DNA of 64,000 nucleotides from an uncultured Bacteriovoracaceae bacterium (GTDB lineage Bacteria > Bdellovibrionota > Bacteriovoracia > Bacteriovoracales > Bacteriovoracaceae). The notes beneath the pieces were generated by a model. That model was given only the letters and a program-made list of their open reading frames with translations, did no database searches and was not told where the DNA came from. Within the stretch, counting starts at the first letter, position 1; the number at the start of each line of letters is the position of its first letter. This document shows positions 9,337 to 18,273 of the stretch, piece by piece. The stretch is taken from NCBI GenBank assembly GCA_937931205.1, contig CALHBF010000002.1:62001-126000 (forward strand), given 5' to 3'. The translations under genes and the position numbers were made by a program.

Positions 9337-10227
9337 ATGTTTGAACACTTATTTGCAAGCTTCTTTAAGACACCTGATAATCAACAAATCTTCTACCTTC
9401 GAAACGTAAAAGAGTTTGATCAGTCTAAGCCCATACTTATTTTTAACTATGGTCTCGTTTGCAGTAACCACCACTGGAGTTTCCAAGTAACCTTTTTTGA
9501 TAAGCTTGGTTATCAAATACTTCTTCACGATTATCGCGGTCATTTTCAATCCACCATGGGTGCAGTTGAAGAAGTAACCTTCGCTCAGATGGCCAGTGAT
9601 ATAAAAAACCTTTGTGATCATCTTCATATTAAGAAGGCAATCTTCCTTGGGCATAGCATGGGAGTTAATGTCTCTTTGCAGATTGCCAAAGATTATCCTG
9701 AACTGGTGCAGAGTCTTATTCTTATCTCTGGTACTTATATGCCGGTAAAAGACATCATGTTCGACACCAATCTGATGGAATACATCATGCTAGTGGCGAC
9801 CCTCTTTCATCAGCGCTATCCTGAGGTTTTGCAAAAAATTTGGAAAACCGGCGGCCTTAACCCAATCGTGCGAGAAATTATTCATACTGCCGGCTTTAAT
9901 AGAAAGAAGGTTTCTCGAGAATTTATTGAAATCTATTTAAATCGAATGGGTCAGCTGGGTGTTGAAATATTCTTCAAACTAATTGATGAAATGAGTAAAC
10001 AAAATATCACTTCATCGCTGGTGCGAATTGATGTCCCAACACTTGTAATCGGTGGATTAAAAGATGGAGTTATCCCCAACCATCTTCAAAGATCGCTGGC
10101 AAATATCCTTAGTGATTCAGAAACTTATTATTTAAAAACAGGCTCTCACGTTCCGCAAGCGGACTTCCCTGATTTTATCAATGAGCGAATTGAACTCTTC
10201 TTTCAGCAAAAACTTAATCTAAATTAA
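9337..10227 (+). CDS. alpha/beta hydrolase
   Basis: Cytoplasmic serine hydrolase of the alpha/beta fold; substrate not predictable. The 296-residue protein shows the nucleophile elbow GHSMG with Ser107, the acid in GGLKDG (Asp243) and the base in GSHVPQ (His271), so the catalytic triad is complete. HDYRGHFQS early in the protein is the usual oxyanion-side loop, and a helical cap lies between about 130 and 215. It follows the FHA-like gene by four bases and ends the operon. Its last 14 bases overlap the convergent gene on the other strand. Confidence 0.85.
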   Translation: MFEHLFASFFKTPDNQQIFYLRNVKEFDQSKPILIFNYGLVCSNHHWSFQVTFFDKLGYQILLHDYRGHFQSTMGAVEEVTFAQMASDIKNLCDHLHIKKAIFLGHSMGVNVSLQIAKDYPELVQSLILISGTYMPVKDIMFDTNLMEYIMLVATLFHQRYPEVLQKIWKTGGLNPIVREIIHTAGFNRKKVSREFIEIYLNRMGQLGVEIFFKLIDEMSKQNITSSLVRIDVPTLVIGGLKDGVIPNHLQRSLANILSDSETYYLKTGSHVPQADFPDFINERIELFFQQKLNLN

Positions 10228-11461
10228 TATTTTTAAGTTCGATAAGAGGTTTGAAAATTCGTTTTATAGCAGAACGAACTTGCGATTTTTTATACTCTTC
10301 GTGACTTGCTTCACCTTGCGTGTTCTGAACGTGTGAATCCTTATCAGTAAGCTGCACTTCAAACGGATAGAAGAATCGTACATCACGAGAAATTGGTGTG
10401 GTATCAATTGAAAGTAAGGCCTGAGAAACAGGATTCTCACGATCGGCAATGGCCTTTTTACGAACCTCATTAAATGAAGACATGAATGGATTACGATACT
10501 TAATCAACTGTCTTCCCGTAAAATGAATGGCACGGTAATCATCGCTTGAGTGCTGATTATCATGACGAGATAAACCAGGAACACACTCTTCCATCAAATT
10601 ATTGAGCTCTTGATAAAAGATCTGTTGTGGCCAATCTTCTCTCATTGATCTCTTATAAAGAGTGAACATTCTTTTTCTTAAACATACTAGATCAACCAAA
10701 GTATTCTGAGAGCGAGATGGCTTGATGTTATTAACGGTCACCACATTGTTTTTTACAAGAAAGCGAATGACACGAAGTGCATCAAGCTTATTCTCAGTAA
10801 CAATTCTCACCCCAATCCTATCAAACAGCTCCTCAGCAACATTTTCTTTTTTGTGAAGTAGTTTAATGATGATGGAGTCTCTTGTTTTTTTCGCTTTCGT
10901 TTGAAAGTCGACAAGAGGGATTGATTGCCCATGATCATTTCGCAAAAATAGATTGTTCTGATCATCACGATGAATGAATTTATAAAAGCGATCAAAAATT
11001 TGTTGTTGGATTGTAGAGAAGTAACGGTAACGGAGATCTTTATCAGTATGAAGAATAGTGTGCATCACTTTCAAGACGACACTCGCCCATAAAGCTTCCT
11101 CAGTATTAACTTTAAAACCCTGGGCCCTGCCGTTAGCAGAGAGGAAAAGATCACTAATATTAGTTATGGTAAATAAAAAATGAGGCAAACGAAGATCAAG
11201 GCCTTCGGTATTACCTTCTTTTAAGAAATAACGACGAATAAATTGAATGGCCTCTTGGAAAATTCCGAACAGCTCAGCGTTTTCTACGGGATCATTGATA
11301 TCAAATCCGTAACCGTAGAGAAAATGGGCCACATCATCCTTGGTCATCAGGTCCGACAGATAATTAGTTCCCTCCAAAGATGACTTGCCGCTGCAAATCA
11401 TATCGAAGGTTTCCCAGTTAAAAGCATATTCTTGTAAATAATCTGGACGTGACCCCATCAT
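10214..11461 (-). CDS. divergent RelA/SpoT-synthetase-like protein
   Basis: Predicted cytoplasmic protein of about 415 residues. The C-terminal half carries, in the right order, motifs resembling the (p)ppGpp synthetase fold: DRIGVRIVT (from Asp214), DDYRAIHF (about 307-314, like the GYRSLH loop that stacks the pyrophosphate-acceptor base), FEVQL (Glu368, like ExQIR) and GEASHEEYKK (like AAHWKYK). The N-terminal 200 residues are helical and unrecognised; no HD hydrolase motif, TGS or ACT domain is seen. I recall uncharacterised families of this kind in related bacteria, but the name is not certain. An in-frame TTG at 11470 is the alternative start. It is convergent with the hydrolase gene. 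Function in nucleotide signalling is inference. Confidence 0.6.
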   Translation of the reverse strand: MMGSRPDYLQEYAFNWETFDMICSGKSSLEGTNYLSDLMTKDDVAHFLYGYGFDINDPVENAELFGIFQEAIQFIRRYFLKEGNTEGLDLRLPHFLFTITNISDLFLSANGRAQGFKVNTEEALWASVVLKVMHTILHTDKDLRYRYFSTIQQQIFDRFYKFIHRDDQNNLFLRNDHGQSIPLVDFQTKAKKTRDSIIIKLLHKKENVAEELFDRIGVRIVTENKLDALRVIRFLVKNNVVTVNNIKPSRSQNTLVDLVCLRKRMFTLYKRSMREDWPQQIFYQELNNLMEECVPGLSRHDNQHSSDDYRAIHFTGRQLIKYRNPFMSSFNEVRKKAIADRENPVSQALLSIDTTPISRDVRFFYPFEVQLTDKDSHVQNTQGEASHEEYKKSQVRSAIKRIFKPLIELKNINLD

Positions 11462-11521
11462 TTTTGCCAATTCTTATAATTCAAATTAAAGTCTAATATA
11501 AGGCAAACTAACGTATAAAAT

Positions 11522-13279: not shown

Positions 13280-13765
13280 ATGAATCAAAGAATCTATAAT
13301 TACTCACTTCATCTACTCGCTCGTCAGGATTATTCAGAATACAAGCTGAAGAAGAAACTCCTTTCTAAACCAGATAATACTCTTGAAGAAGTTAATGAAG
13401 TTATTGAAAAACTTCTTGAGAAAAAACTTCTTAATGAAGAAAATTATAAAAGACTCTTTATCAAAAAATGGATTTATAAAGGAGAATCATTCTCCAAGAT
13501 TTCCATGCGGGCCAAAGCAGAAAAATTAGAAATATTTGCGGAAGAGTTTCAAATCATTGAAGAGGAAATGGGGATTAAAGAAGAGGATTCCTTAGTTTCT
13601 CTTATTCATAAAAAATTGCGATCAAAAGAAATTCCTAATGGTTTTCCTGAGAGGCAAAAGTTAAAAGAAAAAGTTTTAAGATTTCTCATCTCTAAAGGTC
13701 ACGATTACAGTGATGCCAAAGATGGAATTGAGAGATATTTTAAAAGCAGTAAATCAGATAGCTAA
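13280..13765 (+). CDS. recX: regulatory protein RecX
   Basis: Modulator that binds and limits RecA filaments. The product is about 161 residues, the usual size, helical and charged. The N-terminal IYNYSLHLLARQDYSEYKLKK matches the RecX pattern in which A-x-R-x-hydrophobic-S-x-x-E-L-x-x-K-L marks the first repeat. Position directly after recA supports the call. The ATG at 13280 is preferred over an in-frame GTG at 13262, which lies inside the recA terminator stem. No ribosome-binding site is visible, so expression probably depends on read-through. Its stop codon overlaps the end of the convergent kinase gene. Confidence 0.88.
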   Translation: MNQRIYNYSLHLLARQDYSEYKLKKKLLSKPDNTLEEVNEVIEKLLEKKLLNEENYKRLFIKKWIYKGESFSKISMRAKAEKLEIFAEEFQIIEEEMGIKEEDSLVSLIHKKLRSKEIPNGFPERQKLKEKVLRFLISKGHDYSDAKDGIERYFKSSKSDS

Positions 13766-16272
13766 CCATGAAGTTTCTTTTTTAGCCTAACCTCAAAGAT
13801 AGTTCCTTTACCTAAATCACTCTGAACTTTAATCTCTCCCTGATGAGCATCAACAATATTTTTACAAATATAAAGACCAAGGCCCAAACCACTAATTCCA
13901 CTGTTATGCCCTACTCTCTCAAAGCGATCAAAAACCTTTCCCTGATCTTGCGGAGAAATTCCTACCCCTTGATCTTTAACTGCAAAAACAACCGAATCAG
14001 GATACTCGAATAACTCAATCTCAATAGGCCTATTATTACCATATTTAAGTGCATTCGAAATAAGGTTGGTTAGAACCTGTTCTATTCTAAAAGCATCACA
14101 CTCCACTAGCACAGGAGACGATTTCTCAAACTTGGCACCTTGATTATCAAGTCTTTTATCGCCTTGATATCTTTCCAATACCCCAATGATAATTTTATTT
14201 AAGTCATTCACATGAAATAATAAATCCATTTTCCCCGAACTGATTTTACTAACGTCCAGAAGATCATCTACTAGATATCTCAGACGCTTTAGTTCTTTGA
14301 CTGATTTTTCAATATAGGGAGCAATGACATTCGATTTTTTTAATGTCCTATGGCTCAATTCCAAAAGAAGTCCCAAAGAAGTAATCGGAGTTTTTAATTC
14401 ATGGCTCGCCATCGAAATAAATTCATCTCTTACTTGTAGGGCATCTTTTAATTCTTCTTCAATTTTTTTTATCGGGTCGATATTTACGCCTGAGCCATAC
14501 CATTTAATGATTTTGCCTTTATCGTTTTTGGCCGGGATAGTTCTTACTAAAATCCACTGATAATCTCCATTACGAGTACGGATTCTCATTTCCATTGTGT
14601 AGGGAGTTCCATTTTTTATCGCCTTCAACCATAGCTCTCTTACCTTTGGCAGATCGTCTGGGTGAATCACTTCAGCAGCAGAGATCTCTTCGTAAAGATC
14701 ATTCCCCAATCCCGTTACTTCTTTCCATCTGCGATTATAGTACTCAGAAGTACCGTCGGGTGAACTAACCCAAATATAGTGATCAACTGAATCAGCAAGA
14801 ACTTGAAACGCTTTATACTGACGTAGTAGTTCTGACTCAATAATGTAACGTTTTAGTTTTTTTACAATCCCTATTTCACTCTGCTTCCAAGGGATTGATT
14901 TAAGCCTTATATTTTTCAGATCTACGTTAGCCCGCAAATCAACCGCCCAATTTTCTATCCCAATCATTTCAGGACGAAACCAAAGAATAAAATTATTTAT
15001 CCCATAAGGAAAATTGATCGCAAGCAATCCTGGGACATGTTCTTTGAATTTGGCAGATGGCGGATAAATACGTGACAAAGAATCTGTCACAAACACTTCA
15101 TCCTCTTCATTGGCCTTAATCCAAGTCACTAGTTGAAGGATTTCTTTTTTCGTCGGTGTATTTCCTTCAAGAAACCATTTTCCATCATAACACATGGCCA
15201 TTGATGACCCTTCAACAGGATTGAGATCCAGTAAAGAAGGACTGTCTTTAGTCAAAGCTTCAAAAAGTTTATTTGATAGTTCTATCTTTCGTTGAATTTT
15301 CTCAAATATATCTAATTGTTTTTGAGAGTATTGATAATCCTCTAGTTTAACTTTTGAGGTAATTAATGTTGAAACAACTTTACCAAGAATTTGAATGGCA
15401 GATTTCTCACATTGCCCAATCATTTTCTCACTACGATGATGACAAGCAATCAATCCCCATAACTCACTTCCATTCATAATTGTAATAGAGAGAGAGGCTC
15501 CGACTTCCATTTTCTTCAGAGAATCTAGATGAAAAGAAAAAGGACTTCGCAAAAGAGTCTTACCTAAATCAGTCACAAGATTTGTTCGAGGATTAATCTC
15601 TGGAATCATCGATGATGGAGTATAAGAAACATTTGGAGTAAACCTCAATGTATTCTCGCAATACATTCTCTTAACCAGATCAGGAGCATTGGTAGCAGGA
15701 AAACGAAGACCTAGATAAGATTTCCATCCTTTGACCATTAGTTTCTCAGCAATCACTGTCCCATTAAACTCTTCATCAAACCGATAAAGCATCACTCGAT
15801 CAAAACCAGTTATATTTTGAATTTCCTCAATAACAGTCTGATAGAGTTCTTTTAAACATTTTGTTTGCTCTATCCGATCAATGATCAAACTCAAACTTCC
15901 CATTACCTGATAAGAAGGACATTCTTCTTTAAGAGGAATTACCTCGACCACCAATTGGTTTTCATTTCTAGTTAATGAAAACTCGAGTAATACTTTCTGC
16001 CCTGACATCTTATGATGTAAGTCTAAGATAAATACAGAACTAGTCTCTTTACTAAAATAAGGAAATGTTTCGAAAGAGTATTTTTTTTCTAAGAAAATAC
16101 GAAAATCTTCACCAATTACTTCCTGAACATTATAATCAATGAAATGACTGATATTTTGACTGACTTGTTCAATAATTAAATTTGGGAGAGAAACAACTAA
16201 TAGAAAACCAAAATCCTGAATAGTCTCAGAAATTTGACTTGGCCTTTCACCACTATTTGTTATGTCACCCAT
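13762..16272 (-). CDS. phytochrome-type sensor histidine kinase lacking the chromophore Cys
   Basis: Sensor kinase of 836 residues, cytoplasmic. Domain order: PAS (about 15-115), phytochrome GAF (about 125-300), PHY (about 310-470), a second PAS (about 485-600) with YYNRRWKEVTG and HPDD, HisKA with SHELKTP (His624) and an HATPase with NLISNALKYG, DQGVGI and GLGLGLYI. Kinase motifs are intact. The light-sensing part is altered: the bacteriophytochrome N-terminal Cys is replaced by Ser7, PASDIP reads PATNAP (Asn195), and the PHY tongue lacks PRxSF. Tyr163, His248 and His278-His279 are kept. A TGA two codons before the ATG rules out a longer N-terminus. No receiver gene is adjacent. Confidence 0.9.
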   Translation of the reverse strand: MGDITNSGERPSQISETIQDFGFLLVVSLPNLIIEQVSQNISHFIDYNVQEVIGEDFRIFLEKKYSFETFPYFSKETSSVFILDLHHKMSGQKVLLEFSLTRNENQLVVEVIPLKEECPSYQVMGSLSLIIDRIEQTKCLKELYQTVIEEIQNITGFDRVMLYRFDEEFNGTVIAEKLMVKGWKSYLGLRFPATNAPDLVKRMYCENTLRFTPNVSYTPSSMIPEINPRTNLVTDLGKTLLRSPFSFHLDSLKKMEVGASLSITIMNGSELWGLIACHHRSEKMIGQCEKSAIQILGKVVSTLITSKVKLEDYQYSQKQLDIFEKIQRKIELSNKLFEALTKDSPSLLDLNPVEGSSMAMCYDGKWFLEGNTPTKKEILQLVTWIKANEEDEVFVTDSLSRIYPPSAKFKEHVPGLLAINFPYGINNFILWFRPEMIGIENWAVDLRANVDLKNIRLKSIPWKQSEIGIVKKLKRYIIESELLRQYKAFQVLADSVDHYIWVSSPDGTSEYYNRRWKEVTGLGNDLYEEISAAEVIHPDDLPKVRELWLKAIKNGTPYTMEMRIRTRNGDYQWILVRTIPAKNDKGKIIKWYGSGVNIDPIKKIEEELKDALQVRDEFISMASHELKTPITSLGLLLELSHRTLKKSNVIAPYIEKSVKELKRLRYLVDDLLDVSKISSGKMDLLFHVNDLNKIIIGVLERYQGDKRLDNQGAKFEKSSPVLVECDAFRIEQVLTNLISNALKYGNNRPIEIELFEYPDSVVFAVKDQGVGISPQDQGKVFDRFERVGHNSGISGLGLGLYICKNIVDAHQGEIKVQSDLGKGTIFEVRLKKKLHG

Positions 16273-16435
16273 TTTTCAACCGCGATTGTAACTGAAGCAT
16301 TGTTCGCACTAGCAGACAATTATTTTAACCTTTTACTCTATGTATTCCTAGTAAGATAAAACAAAGGTTGCCTTAAGATTCTATCTGCGCTGCACACAAC
16401 AAATGTCTACTAATTTGATAGCTGTTCAATATTCA

Positions 16436-16447
16436 AGCGCTAGCGCT
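16436..16447. other. 12-base GC-rich palindrome
   Basis: AGCGCTAGCGCT is a perfect palindrome about 80 bases before the start of the 16527 gene, in an otherwise AT-rich intergenic stretch. It may be a protein-binding site; there is no further support. Confidence 0.3.
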
Positions 16448-16526
16448 CCCTTAACTTATGAAAATCATGTCGGAAATTATTGGCACTTACCTTGCTCATA
16501 TCCAGAACGAACAAGGAAAGGTTTTT

Positions 16527-17429
16527 ATGATGTTTCTAGCACTTCTTATTTCAATGATGAGTCTGTCTGTAACTGCTGCAGAAGAATTTCATATCCCTAA
16601 AGAAGTCTCGATGATCATGAATAAGAAACTTGCTTCTCATGGCCCAAATTGTTGGGGAACAGCACTTTATTTGAAAGGTGTTTCAAAGCGTCCACGCTTT
16701 GTCAGCGATGCTGAAATTAAATATTGGCAAGAGTCCTCACTTTGCCGTCCCTTAGAAATTACCGATCAAATTCTTCCTGGCGATATTATGAATGTCTATG
16801 GGCCAGAGTATGTTTTTGAGACAGATTTTAAGTTAGATGAGCAACAAAAATTTATTAATTTCTTTGAACCTGATCGTTACAAAGAAATTAATAAAACGAG
16901 CTATTCTGGTTTTCACCGACTTCTCCATTCTGAGACTTTTGTGAATAAGAATCAGGTCTTCGGAAAGGAATCTCCGAATAAAGACGACGCTTTCAAATTA
17001 ACAAAAATAAATGAGGTCTATGGTAGACCACGCGACTTAAGTGAGTGTCAGGAATCCCCCACCCTGACACCTCACCTACGTCAATTTGATAATCTTCCAC
17101 GAGGTGTAAAAGGCTCAAAGTGCTCATACTTCACGAAGGTTTTTCGCTGTCAAAATTTCTCAACTCTTCCTCTCAATCAGGAAGATAAGGCCTTGATGGA
17201 ACAAGTTTTCAAACATCAAAACCGCATCTTTGAAGCAGTAGTTTCAAAATCAAAAGCTCTATCAAAAGCAGAGAAAAAAGTGATTCGCGAATTTGCTAAT
17301 ACCCACTTGCAAGAAATTAAACTGCAAGTTTCGAGTGTTCATAATGAAGAAACACGAATGGTTCTCAGTTGGAAATTCTTCTCAGTCTATGCACTGATCG
17401 AAGGAATTACCTGGCTGGAAACTGTCTAA
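16527..17429 (+). CDS. secreted protein, possibly a papain-like (NlpC/P60-type) Cys enzyme
   Basis: Not firmly recognised. With the start at ATG 16527, which has AAGGAAAGG five bases upstream, the 300-residue product has a clean signal peptide ending VTAA near residue 18. A longer frame from ATG 16458 would hide the signal peptide. The mature part contains PNCWGTALYLKG (Cys42), ILPGDIMNVYG (about 85-95) and LLHSETFVN (His134), an order (Cys, PGD, His) reminiscent of NlpC/P60 cell-wall peptidases. Further cysteines near 198 and 216-230 may form disulfides. The C-terminal third is helical and charged. Enzyme activity is inference. The gene appears to be transcribed alone. Confidence 0.6.
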   Translation: MMFLALLISMMSLSVTAAEEFHIPKEVSMIMNKKLASHGPNCWGTALYLKGVSKRPRFVSDAEIKYWQESSLCRPLEITDQILPGDIMNVYGPEYVFETDFKLDEQQKFINFFEPDRYKEINKTSYSGFHRLLHSETFVNKNQVFGKESPNKDDAFKLTKINEVYGRPRDLSECQESPTLTPHLRQFDNLPRGVKGSKCSYFTKVFRCQNFSTLPLNQEDKALMEQVFKHQNRIFEAVVSKSKALSKAEKKVIREFANTHLQEIKLQVSSVHNEETRMVLSWKFFSVYALIEGITWLETV

Positions 17430-17463
17430 GAGTTAGACAGCACTGTAAAAACAATCTACGTTT

Positions 17464-17490
17464 CATGTATTAACCCCCCATAAATACATG
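17464..17490. promoter_or_regulatory. candidate operator: inverted repeat over the -35 box
   Basis: CATGTATT, 11 bases, AATACATG: perfect 8-base half-sites with a 19-base centre-to-centre spacing, about two helical turns. It covers the -35 hexamer of the promoter at 17470-17498, so a bound dimer would block or recruit RNA polymerase. Confidence 0.4.
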
Positions 17491-17498
17491 CCTATACT
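17470..17498 (+). promoter_or_regulatory. sigma-70-type promoter for the 17542 gene
   Basis: TTAACC, 17 bases, TATACT. Five of six -10 bases and four of six -35 bases match, with ideal spacing. Transcription would begin near 17505, at the foot of the hairpin that follows. Confidence 0.5.
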
Positions 17499-17502
17499 TG
17501 GC

Positions 17503-17535
17503 ACTCCTCTTGCTCAATAAAAGGGCAAGAGGGGT
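17503..17535 (+). promoter_or_regulatory. leader hairpin enclosing the ribosome-binding site
   Basis: ACTCCTCTTGC, an 11-base loop, GCAAGAGGGGT: an 11-bp stem with one G-T wobble. The right arm contains AGAGGGG, the apparent Shine-Dalgarno sequence, seven bases before the ATG at 17542. The structure should hide the ribosome-binding site and lies at the very 5' end of the predicted transcript. Confidence 0.55.
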
Positions 17536-17541
17536 CAGAGT

Positions 17542-18273
17542 ATGAGTAAGAAAAATTGGACAATTTGGGGAACAGCTTTTCTTTTCACCGTTATCGGTAC
17601 TTACAACTCTGTTGTTATCGATTCAAAATCAGTTCTTGATAATGCTCACCATTCACTAGTTAAGCGCCTTGATCACGAAGGAGTTAATCGTCCTGCTCGT
17701 ATGGTTGCTTCAACTGTTAAATGGCAAAAAATTCGTCCTGTAGCCCCACAGAAACAAGTGGCCATCATCACTCAAAAGCCTGAGTCAACACAAGAATCAT
17801 TGGCGGTAGAGTCAGTAGTAAGTGAGAATTTAAATCTCATTTTGGTAGAAGTTATTAATCCTGAAAAATTCAAAGATGGCCTGGCATCAACAGACTTCTC
17901 AGGAATGCTGACGACCAACGGTGGACAAATTGAAACCCTAGAAATTGCCCTTCCGGAAGGTCTTGGAGTTTCAGCTTCATATTCAGAAATCAGTGGGAAT
18001 GTTTTTGAGTACGAATCAAATGGTGAAACTCAAAGTGGAATGCTTTATCAAGTTGATCAAAACGCTTATATGGTGAGCTTTACTGCCGGCCCGATGGCAG
18101 GAACTCGTCTACGTTTCCAAAGCTCTGAGGCCATCCAAGAATTAAGCTCTGAGCCTGAAACTCAACTGGCCGACGTGGGTCAATTTGGTCAAGAAGGCTA
18201 TGAGATGGAAGAAATGGCCAATCTCGATCGCGATCTTCAAAAACAAGCACTAGATGAAGGCTTTAAATTCTAA
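17542..18273 (+). CDS. membrane-anchored or exported hypothetical protein
   Basis: Not recognised. The 243-residue product has an N-terminal hydrophobic segment (about 6-25) without a clear cleavage site, so it may be an inner-membrane anchor. A basic Pro/Gln-rich linker follows, then a compact strand-rich region (about 100-195) with FSGMLTTNGGQIETLEIALPEG and SFTAGPMAGTRLRF, and an acidic tail with QFGQEGYEMEEM. It has its own promoter, operator-like repeat and leader hairpin, so expression is probably controlled at more than one level. An inverted repeat follows the stop codon. Confidence 0.7.
   Translation: MSKKNWTIWGTAFLFTVIGTYNSVVIDSKSVLDNAHHSLVKRLDHEGVNRPARMVASTVKWQKIRPVAPQKQVAIITQKPESTQESLAVESVVSENLNLILVEVINPEKFKDGLASTDFSGMLTTNGGQIETLEIALPEGLGVSASYSEISGNVFEYESNGETQSGMLYQVDQNAYMVSFTAGPMAGTRLRFQSSEAIQELSSEPETQLADVGQFGQEGYEMEEMANLDRDLQKQALDEGFKF

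Follow-up and report, generated by a model that had tools for sequence, protein, structure and literature searches.

The window analyzed here, a stretch of 64,000 nucleotides from an uncultured Bacteriovoracaceae bacterium, encodes a phytochrome-derived sensor histidine kinase. Judging from its sequence, this protein likely no longer acts as a red/far-red switch and is light-blind, and it is probably driven via an extra PAS_3 domain or by a non-light cue. The open reading frame (ORF) starts with ATG and runs stop-free for 836 codons. Immediately upstream the frame reads TGA-AAA-ATG; thus, the N-terminus is complete and leaves no room for an in-frame Cys further up, as a preliminary description of the sequence had pointed out. 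The same description had recognized phytochrome-like GAF and PHY regions, in agreement with the Pfam matches to PAS_2, GAF and PHY and with the matches to PsBphP1, FiDCB and Cph1. The PAS–GAF–PHY photosensory architecture is present by Pfam, and the fold match agrees. The features are as follows, all on the minus strand; the counts refer to 89 comparison modules described below.

13762..16272, minus strand: phytochrome-derived sensor histidine kinase, 836 amino acids (ORF and Pfam domains)
16252..16254, minus strand: Ser7 at the position of the biliverdin-binding Cys (alignment; Cys in 88 of 89 others)
15940..16242, minus strand: PAS_2, residues 11–111 (Pfam)
15373..15855, minus strand: GAF, residues 140–300 (Pfam)
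15688..15690, minus strand: Asn195 at the PASDIP Asp, the motif being PATNAP (alignment; Asp in 89 of 89 others)
15532..15534, minus strand: Phe247 at the Cph1-type GAF Cys position (alignment; 84 of 89 others have Ile or Val, none Cys)
15520..15522, minus strand: Ser251 at the conserved GAF Tyr, Tyr259 in PsBphP1 (Tyr in 87 of 89 others)
14839..15297, minus strand: PHY, residues 326–478 (Pfam)
14887..14949, minus strand: shortened tongue, residues 442–462, PRxSF strand missing (W-to-W spacing of 20)
14494..14742, minus strand: extra PAS_3 between PHY and kinase, residues 511–593 (Pfam)
14233..14430, minus strand: HisKA, residues 615–680, with phospho-acceptor His624 (Pfam and kinase comparison)
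13777..14097, minus strand: HATPase_c, residues 726–832 (Pfam and kinase comparison)

The extra PAS_3 was found in none of the seven relatives scanned. It goes beyond the preliminary description, as do the tongue loss and the changes at residues 201, 251 and 254 given below.

Chromophore anchor, pocket and tongue

We compared the photosensory module with 89 others, of which 28 come from the same phylum, 30 from that of Flaviramulus basaltis (genome G369, which carries L002) and 31 from that of a Paracoccaceae genome (G368, which carries L001). L036, L072, L073 and L075 (5'-open) and L142 (no trimming motif) were dropped before this count; the sample leans to better-scoring places, and places listed without a locus lie outside it. 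The solved structures that match best are PsBphP1 (8u4x; 306.6 bits over two stretches), FiDCB (268.5 bits) and Cph1 (246.1 bits). The N-terminal Cys of PsBphP1 and FiDCB aligns with Ser7 of the window protein, and the GAF Cys of Cph1 and FiDCB aligns with Phe247, so neither bilin-binding Cys, N-terminal or GAF, is found in the window protein. Both substitutions had been named in the preliminary description, and the alignment places Ser, not Cys, at the attachment position. The first Cys of the whole protein is residue 118, so a substitute for the lost anchor is not nearby. The photosensory module has cysteines at 118, 139, 205, 277, 288 and 361, of which Cys277 is common in relatives (83 of 89). 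The pocket residues Tyr163, Arg210, Arg242, His248 and His278 are retained, as is His279, which bears out the earlier statement on Tyr163 and the three histidines. Arg210 and Arg242 align with Arg218 and Arg250 of PsBphP1, which anchor a bilin propionate according to the relevant passage on that structure (PMC11316798).

The DIP-motif Asp aligns with Asn195. Its loss, proposed earlier from the change of PASDIP to PATNAP, stands, and given how invariant positions 7 and 195 are among the other modules, chance does not account for either change. The role in hydrogen-bonding the pyrrole water given for this Asp has no counterpart in the passages on SaBphP2, IsPadC and PsBphP1, which assign its side chain to tongue docking and are silent on a pyrrole water. 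In SaBphP2, the partner of this Asp is the PRxSF Arg (salt bridge) in the red-absorbing (Pr) state and the PRxSF Ser (hydrogen bond) in the far-red-absorbing (Pfr) state (PMC6748860, in part), and the same Asp–Arg salt bridge is described for IsPadC (PMC6005682, in part). In the Pfr state of PsBphP1, by the same passage as above (PMC11316798), Ser472 of PRxSF is hydrogen-bonded to two GAF residues, Asp203 and Tyr259. In its Pr state, the hairpin touches the DIP motif and the GAF helix 254–263 through its WGG and PRxSF motifs. By alignment, Asp203 corresponds to Asn195, Tyr259 to Ser251 and the helix 254–263 to about residues 246–255 of the window protein (the 8u4x chain has one extra N-terminal glycine). 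Within this helix, the window protein departs at 246, 251 and 254. Tyr251 is replaced by Ser and Asn254 by Lys (Asn in 88 of 89 others), and elsewhere in GAF Arg201 is replaced by Lys (Arg in all 89 others).

The other side of this contact is also lost. About 17 residues are absent from the PHY tongue, namely its returning half with the PRxSF motif. The tongue of the window protein reads NWAVDLRANVDLKN and then runs straight into IRLKSIPW; FiDCB has at the same place an extra stretch with SPRKSF ahead of VRLKSLPW. The distance from W442 to W462 is 20, compared with 33–41 (mostly 37) in the 88 other rows measured, and the loss is in frame. A PRxxF motif in the C-terminal part of the row is not found in the window protein and is matched in all 89 others, its fourth letter not always being Ser among relatives. 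Taken with the contacts in PsBphP1, SaBphP2 and IsPadC, these losses mean that both sides of the GAF–tongue contact are gone, in addition to the covalent anchor. Even a bound bilin should therefore not drive Pr/Pfr signaling. We know of no phytochrome that combines chromophore loss with loss of the tongue strand and of both contacting GAF residues. In a limited search of titles and abstract openings in the open-licence literature, none of the matches listed named a phytochrome that had lost tongue strand, Asp and Tyr together.

The predicted fold is still that of a phytochrome PAS–GAF–PHY module. A model built from a five-row alignment has a predicted local distance difference test (pLDDT) score of 71.6 and a predicted template modeling score of 0.66, and Foldseek matches it to Cph1, PsBphP, FiDCB and other phytochromes (best E of 1.5e-35). 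Only the overall fold was used, since a five-row alignment cannot resolve tongues: the low pLDDT of the tongue (444–456) was rejected as evidence because the model of L162, which has PRNSF, built from the same five sequences also falls below 50 over its tongue (435–465).

Conservation of the two halves

To describe the divergence of the photosensory half, a position was taken as conserved if at least 90% of the other modules have the same residue. Of 48 such positions, the window protein keeps 28 and departs at 20; the 89 others have a median of 1 departure and at most 9. Smaller sets give the same picture. Compared with an earlier set of 32 others from its own phylum, it departs at 14 of 47 positions, where no other module exceeds 5. 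Compared with 60 others, the figure is 15 of 42 and the highest count elsewhere is 8; one of the two 8s (L090, whose tongue motif PRQSF is present) is an artefact of a 650-residue cut. The window protein has a branch length of 1.87 in the tree and falls in no starred set, so no nearest lineage is assigned; the best identity in the tree set is 29%. Other long-branch relatives depart far less, namely L066 (1.87) at 1 of 46, L154 (1.52) at 1 of 46 and L087 (1.97) at 6 of 48. Since L066 has an equally long branch, fast evolution alone is not the explanation.

The kinase half is different. The PAS_3–kinase half shares 35–43% identity with its eight best family matches outside its own genome. Compared with 28 family kinases, the kinase region departs at 4 of 45 conserved positions (D597N, R676K, I780V and P831K), none of them catalytic, and the residues of the H-box and the N, D and G boxes (H624, N736, D767, G769, G771, G795, G797 and G799) are kept. 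Most comparison kinases depart at 0–8 positions; L032 departs at 23 and is probably misaligned. The intact kinase of the preliminary description is thus supported. The photosensory and kinase departures differ with a Fisher p of 0.0003 (0.002 with the tongue loss counted once), although the positions tested are not strictly independent.

Several other phytochromes deserve mention on their own account. L064 (G195:C4:70707-72071, minus strand) is a second phytochrome without the N-terminal Cys, with Tyr in its place, PASDIA, His at the GAF Tyr and an intact PRASF tongue; its open frame of 529 amino acids is too short for a kinase. L092 and L093, from the phylum of Flaviramulus basaltis, are short phytochromes (open frames of 498 and 517 amino acids) with divergent N-termini, EFCGRVPL and EFCGSLPL, where NCxxEPIHIP is usual. 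A plasmid search gave 130 records, all below 60% identity. Among viral contigs, scanning with a single protein gave no relative, and scanning with an alignment gave three IMG/VR contigs, of putative viral origin, that encode phytochrome photosensory modules (L162, L163 and L164).

Interpretation, rival explanations and genomic setting

Three options had been offered in the preliminary description: non-covalent bilin binding, another ligand, or a light-blind phytochrome with an intact kinase. The evidence now favors the last, since the protein also lacks the tongue strand and both of its GAF contact residues. Without anchor, docking site and tongue strand, the light-driven refolding from hairpin to helix that moves the PHY domains could presumably not occur. 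The photosensory module would then serve as a dimerizing scaffold or as a sensor of a non-light cue, and the PAS_3–HisKA–HATPase part would be constitutive or controlled by PAS_3, phosphorylating a response regulator encoded elsewhere. Tentatively, the light relay (anchor, docking Asp and Tyr, and tongue strand) may have been dismantled as a unit, with the PAS–GAF–PHY fold kept to sense a chemical signal or to act as an allosteric scaffold, in either role gating the PAS_3–kinase. If so, the protein is a natural experiment on which phytochrome parts serve light alone. The joint loss of the contacting residues is evolutionary support for the GAF–tongue relay seen in structures, and the protein lets one ask what the phytochrome fold does once light is irrelevant.

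Some points weigh against a light-blind kinase. The contrast between the photosensory and kinase halves is qualified by conserved positions that depend on one another and by the use of different comparison sets for each half. The search gave no close orthologue; selection on this very form is therefore not measurable, and recent decay is possible. With Tyr163, Arg210, Arg242, His248 and His278 retained, some tetrapyrrole could still bind. In addition, an engineered IsPadC in which the PHY tongues are replaced by a short loop still carries biliverdin, half of it photo-isomerizable (PMC6005682, in part), so photochemistry can survive loss of the tongue alone. Finally, the supply of chromophore says little. 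Heme oxygenase, a usual though not defining companion of bacteriophytochromes, was not found in the genome of the window, which is 86% complete, either with PF01126 or with a same-genus heme oxygenase as the query; this look-up had been suggested in the preliminary description. It occurs in 3 of 129 family genomes (G080, G083 and G084), near a phytochrome in G083 and G084, and of the seven other family genomes with a phytochrome, five likewise have no PF01126. The seven phytochromes with a complete N-terminus in those genomes keep the Cys, the DIP Asp and the PR..F tongue (PRKHF in L044 and PRSEF in L045); an eighth, L036, is cut at its 5' end. Given the genome completeness and these carriers, the absence is weak evidence, and we rejected it as proof of light-blindness. 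As a separate observation, L084 4428-9993 (G083:C53) has a heme oxygenase followed, as named by eye, by a receiver protein, a kinase-less phytochrome and an overlapping hybrid kinase, a gene content that resembles the surroundings of Ramlibacter RtBphP1 (PMC6848086, in part).

These points bear on the alternatives to different degrees. Non-covalent binding of biliverdin or another linear tetrapyrrole, which would make the protein a bilin sensor or a non-switching pigment protein, would fit the retained Arg210, Arg242, His248, Tyr163 and His278, the two arginines being the counterparts of the propionate anchors of PsBphP1, and bilin binding by the tongue-replaced IsPadC; however, the anchor, the Asp at 195 and the Tyr at 251 are lost together and, as weak evidence, no heme oxygenase was found, which leaves this reading improbable, although non-covalent binding of a bilin or of another ligand as such is possible given the retained pocket. 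Within the light-blind reading, it is by analogy possible, if somewhat unlikely, that the module has been repurposed for another signal such as redox or a small molecule, as reported for RpBphP4: more than half of the conserved photosensory positions are kept and the frame is open throughout, but no ligand or redox motif was identified, and Cys277, the sole photosensory Cys compared across relatives, is a common one.

A gene decaying toward a pseudogene, without present function, is quite improbable. The gene is known from one genome only, is absent from the same slot in the 12 spanning relatives described below and lies on a long branch, and its photosensory half is more AT-rich than the rest [GC content at third codon positions (GC3) of 0.263 versus 0.305]; against this, the 836 codons are free of stops, the tongue loss is in frame and the kinase motifs are intact, with 4 of 45 departures compared with 20 of 48 in the photosensory half. 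Sequencing or assembly error is hardly credible as the source of the lost residues: the genome is a draft in 30 contigs, but sixteen substituted conserved positions and an in-frame loss fall at functionally linked sites without a frameshift.

The gene for the phytochrome-derived kinase lies between a putative recX (weak Pfam match) and a gene at 17542, which is followed by alaS; the assignments of alaS and of the nearby recA are ours, made by eye. Regions were taken from 13 of the 25 other genomes of the genus, of which 12 span the interval, and the order recA–recX–g17542–alaS is kept in all 12. Between recX and the gene that precedes alaS lies a variable slot (window 13766–17541; L119–L131), whose content differs across the genus genomes with some genes shared. 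The phytochrome kinase gene and its neighbor at 16458 have no tblastn match (E of 1e-6) in the 13 regions. Elsewhere in the genus, PHY domains occur in G083 and G084, two of the 25 other genomes; L035 of G083 was rejected as a same-genus orthologue, as it shares 34% identity over residues 122–459 and lies among different genes. With a GC content of 0.356 and a GC3 of 0.281, the gene is within 1.4 standard deviations of the mean of 32 window genes (itself included) and is thus not compositionally foreign. No match to a response regulator was found among the eight neighboring proteins scanned. Apart from these genes, window 10214–11470 has a weak RelA/SpoT-like match below the Pfam cut-off (24.8 versus 27 bits).

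Comparison with known systems

RpBphP4 of Rhodopseudomonas palustris is reportedly a phytochrome histidine kinase that has lost its chromophore and changed from light to redox sensing. The loss of the chromophore Cys, as reported for RpBphP4, is shared by the window protein with its Ser7. Chromophore loss itself is thus already known, and the probably new part is that tongue strand, Asp and Tyr are lost together: beyond what is described for RpBphP4, which may share some of these features, the window protein also lacks the Asp of PASDIP, the Tyr of GAF and the PRxSF strand, and has an added PAS_3.

PsBphP1 of Pseudomonas syringae (8u4x), the best-scoring solved relative at 307 bits, shares PAS–GAF–PHY followed by HisKA and HATPase. 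Its Cys16, Asp203, Tyr259 and PRTSF are all four lost in the window protein. Cph1 and FiDCB (a dual-Cys cyanobacterial phytochrome, 9jry) share the photosensory fold as high-scoring matches; the window protein has Phe247 for their GAF Cys and Ser7 for the N-terminal Cys of FiDCB, whose PRKSF is missing. The tongue-replaced IsPadC resembles the window protein in that the tongue is removed. However, it is an engineered form with a larger deletion that binds biliverdin (PMC6005682, in part), whereas the window protein is natural, has a shorter in-frame loss and has also lost the anchor and docking residues. The apo-bacteriophytochromes RpBphP2 and RpBphP3 are described as proteins that are required even where the sensing of light quality is dispensable (PMC6879726, in part). 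According to the Ramlibacter model, phosphorylation of both phytochromes takes place in the dark as well as in light when biliverdin is absent (PMC6848086, in part). By analogy with this model and with RpBphP4 as described above, the kinase of the window protein would be expected to be constitutive or to answer to PAS_3 or another cue.
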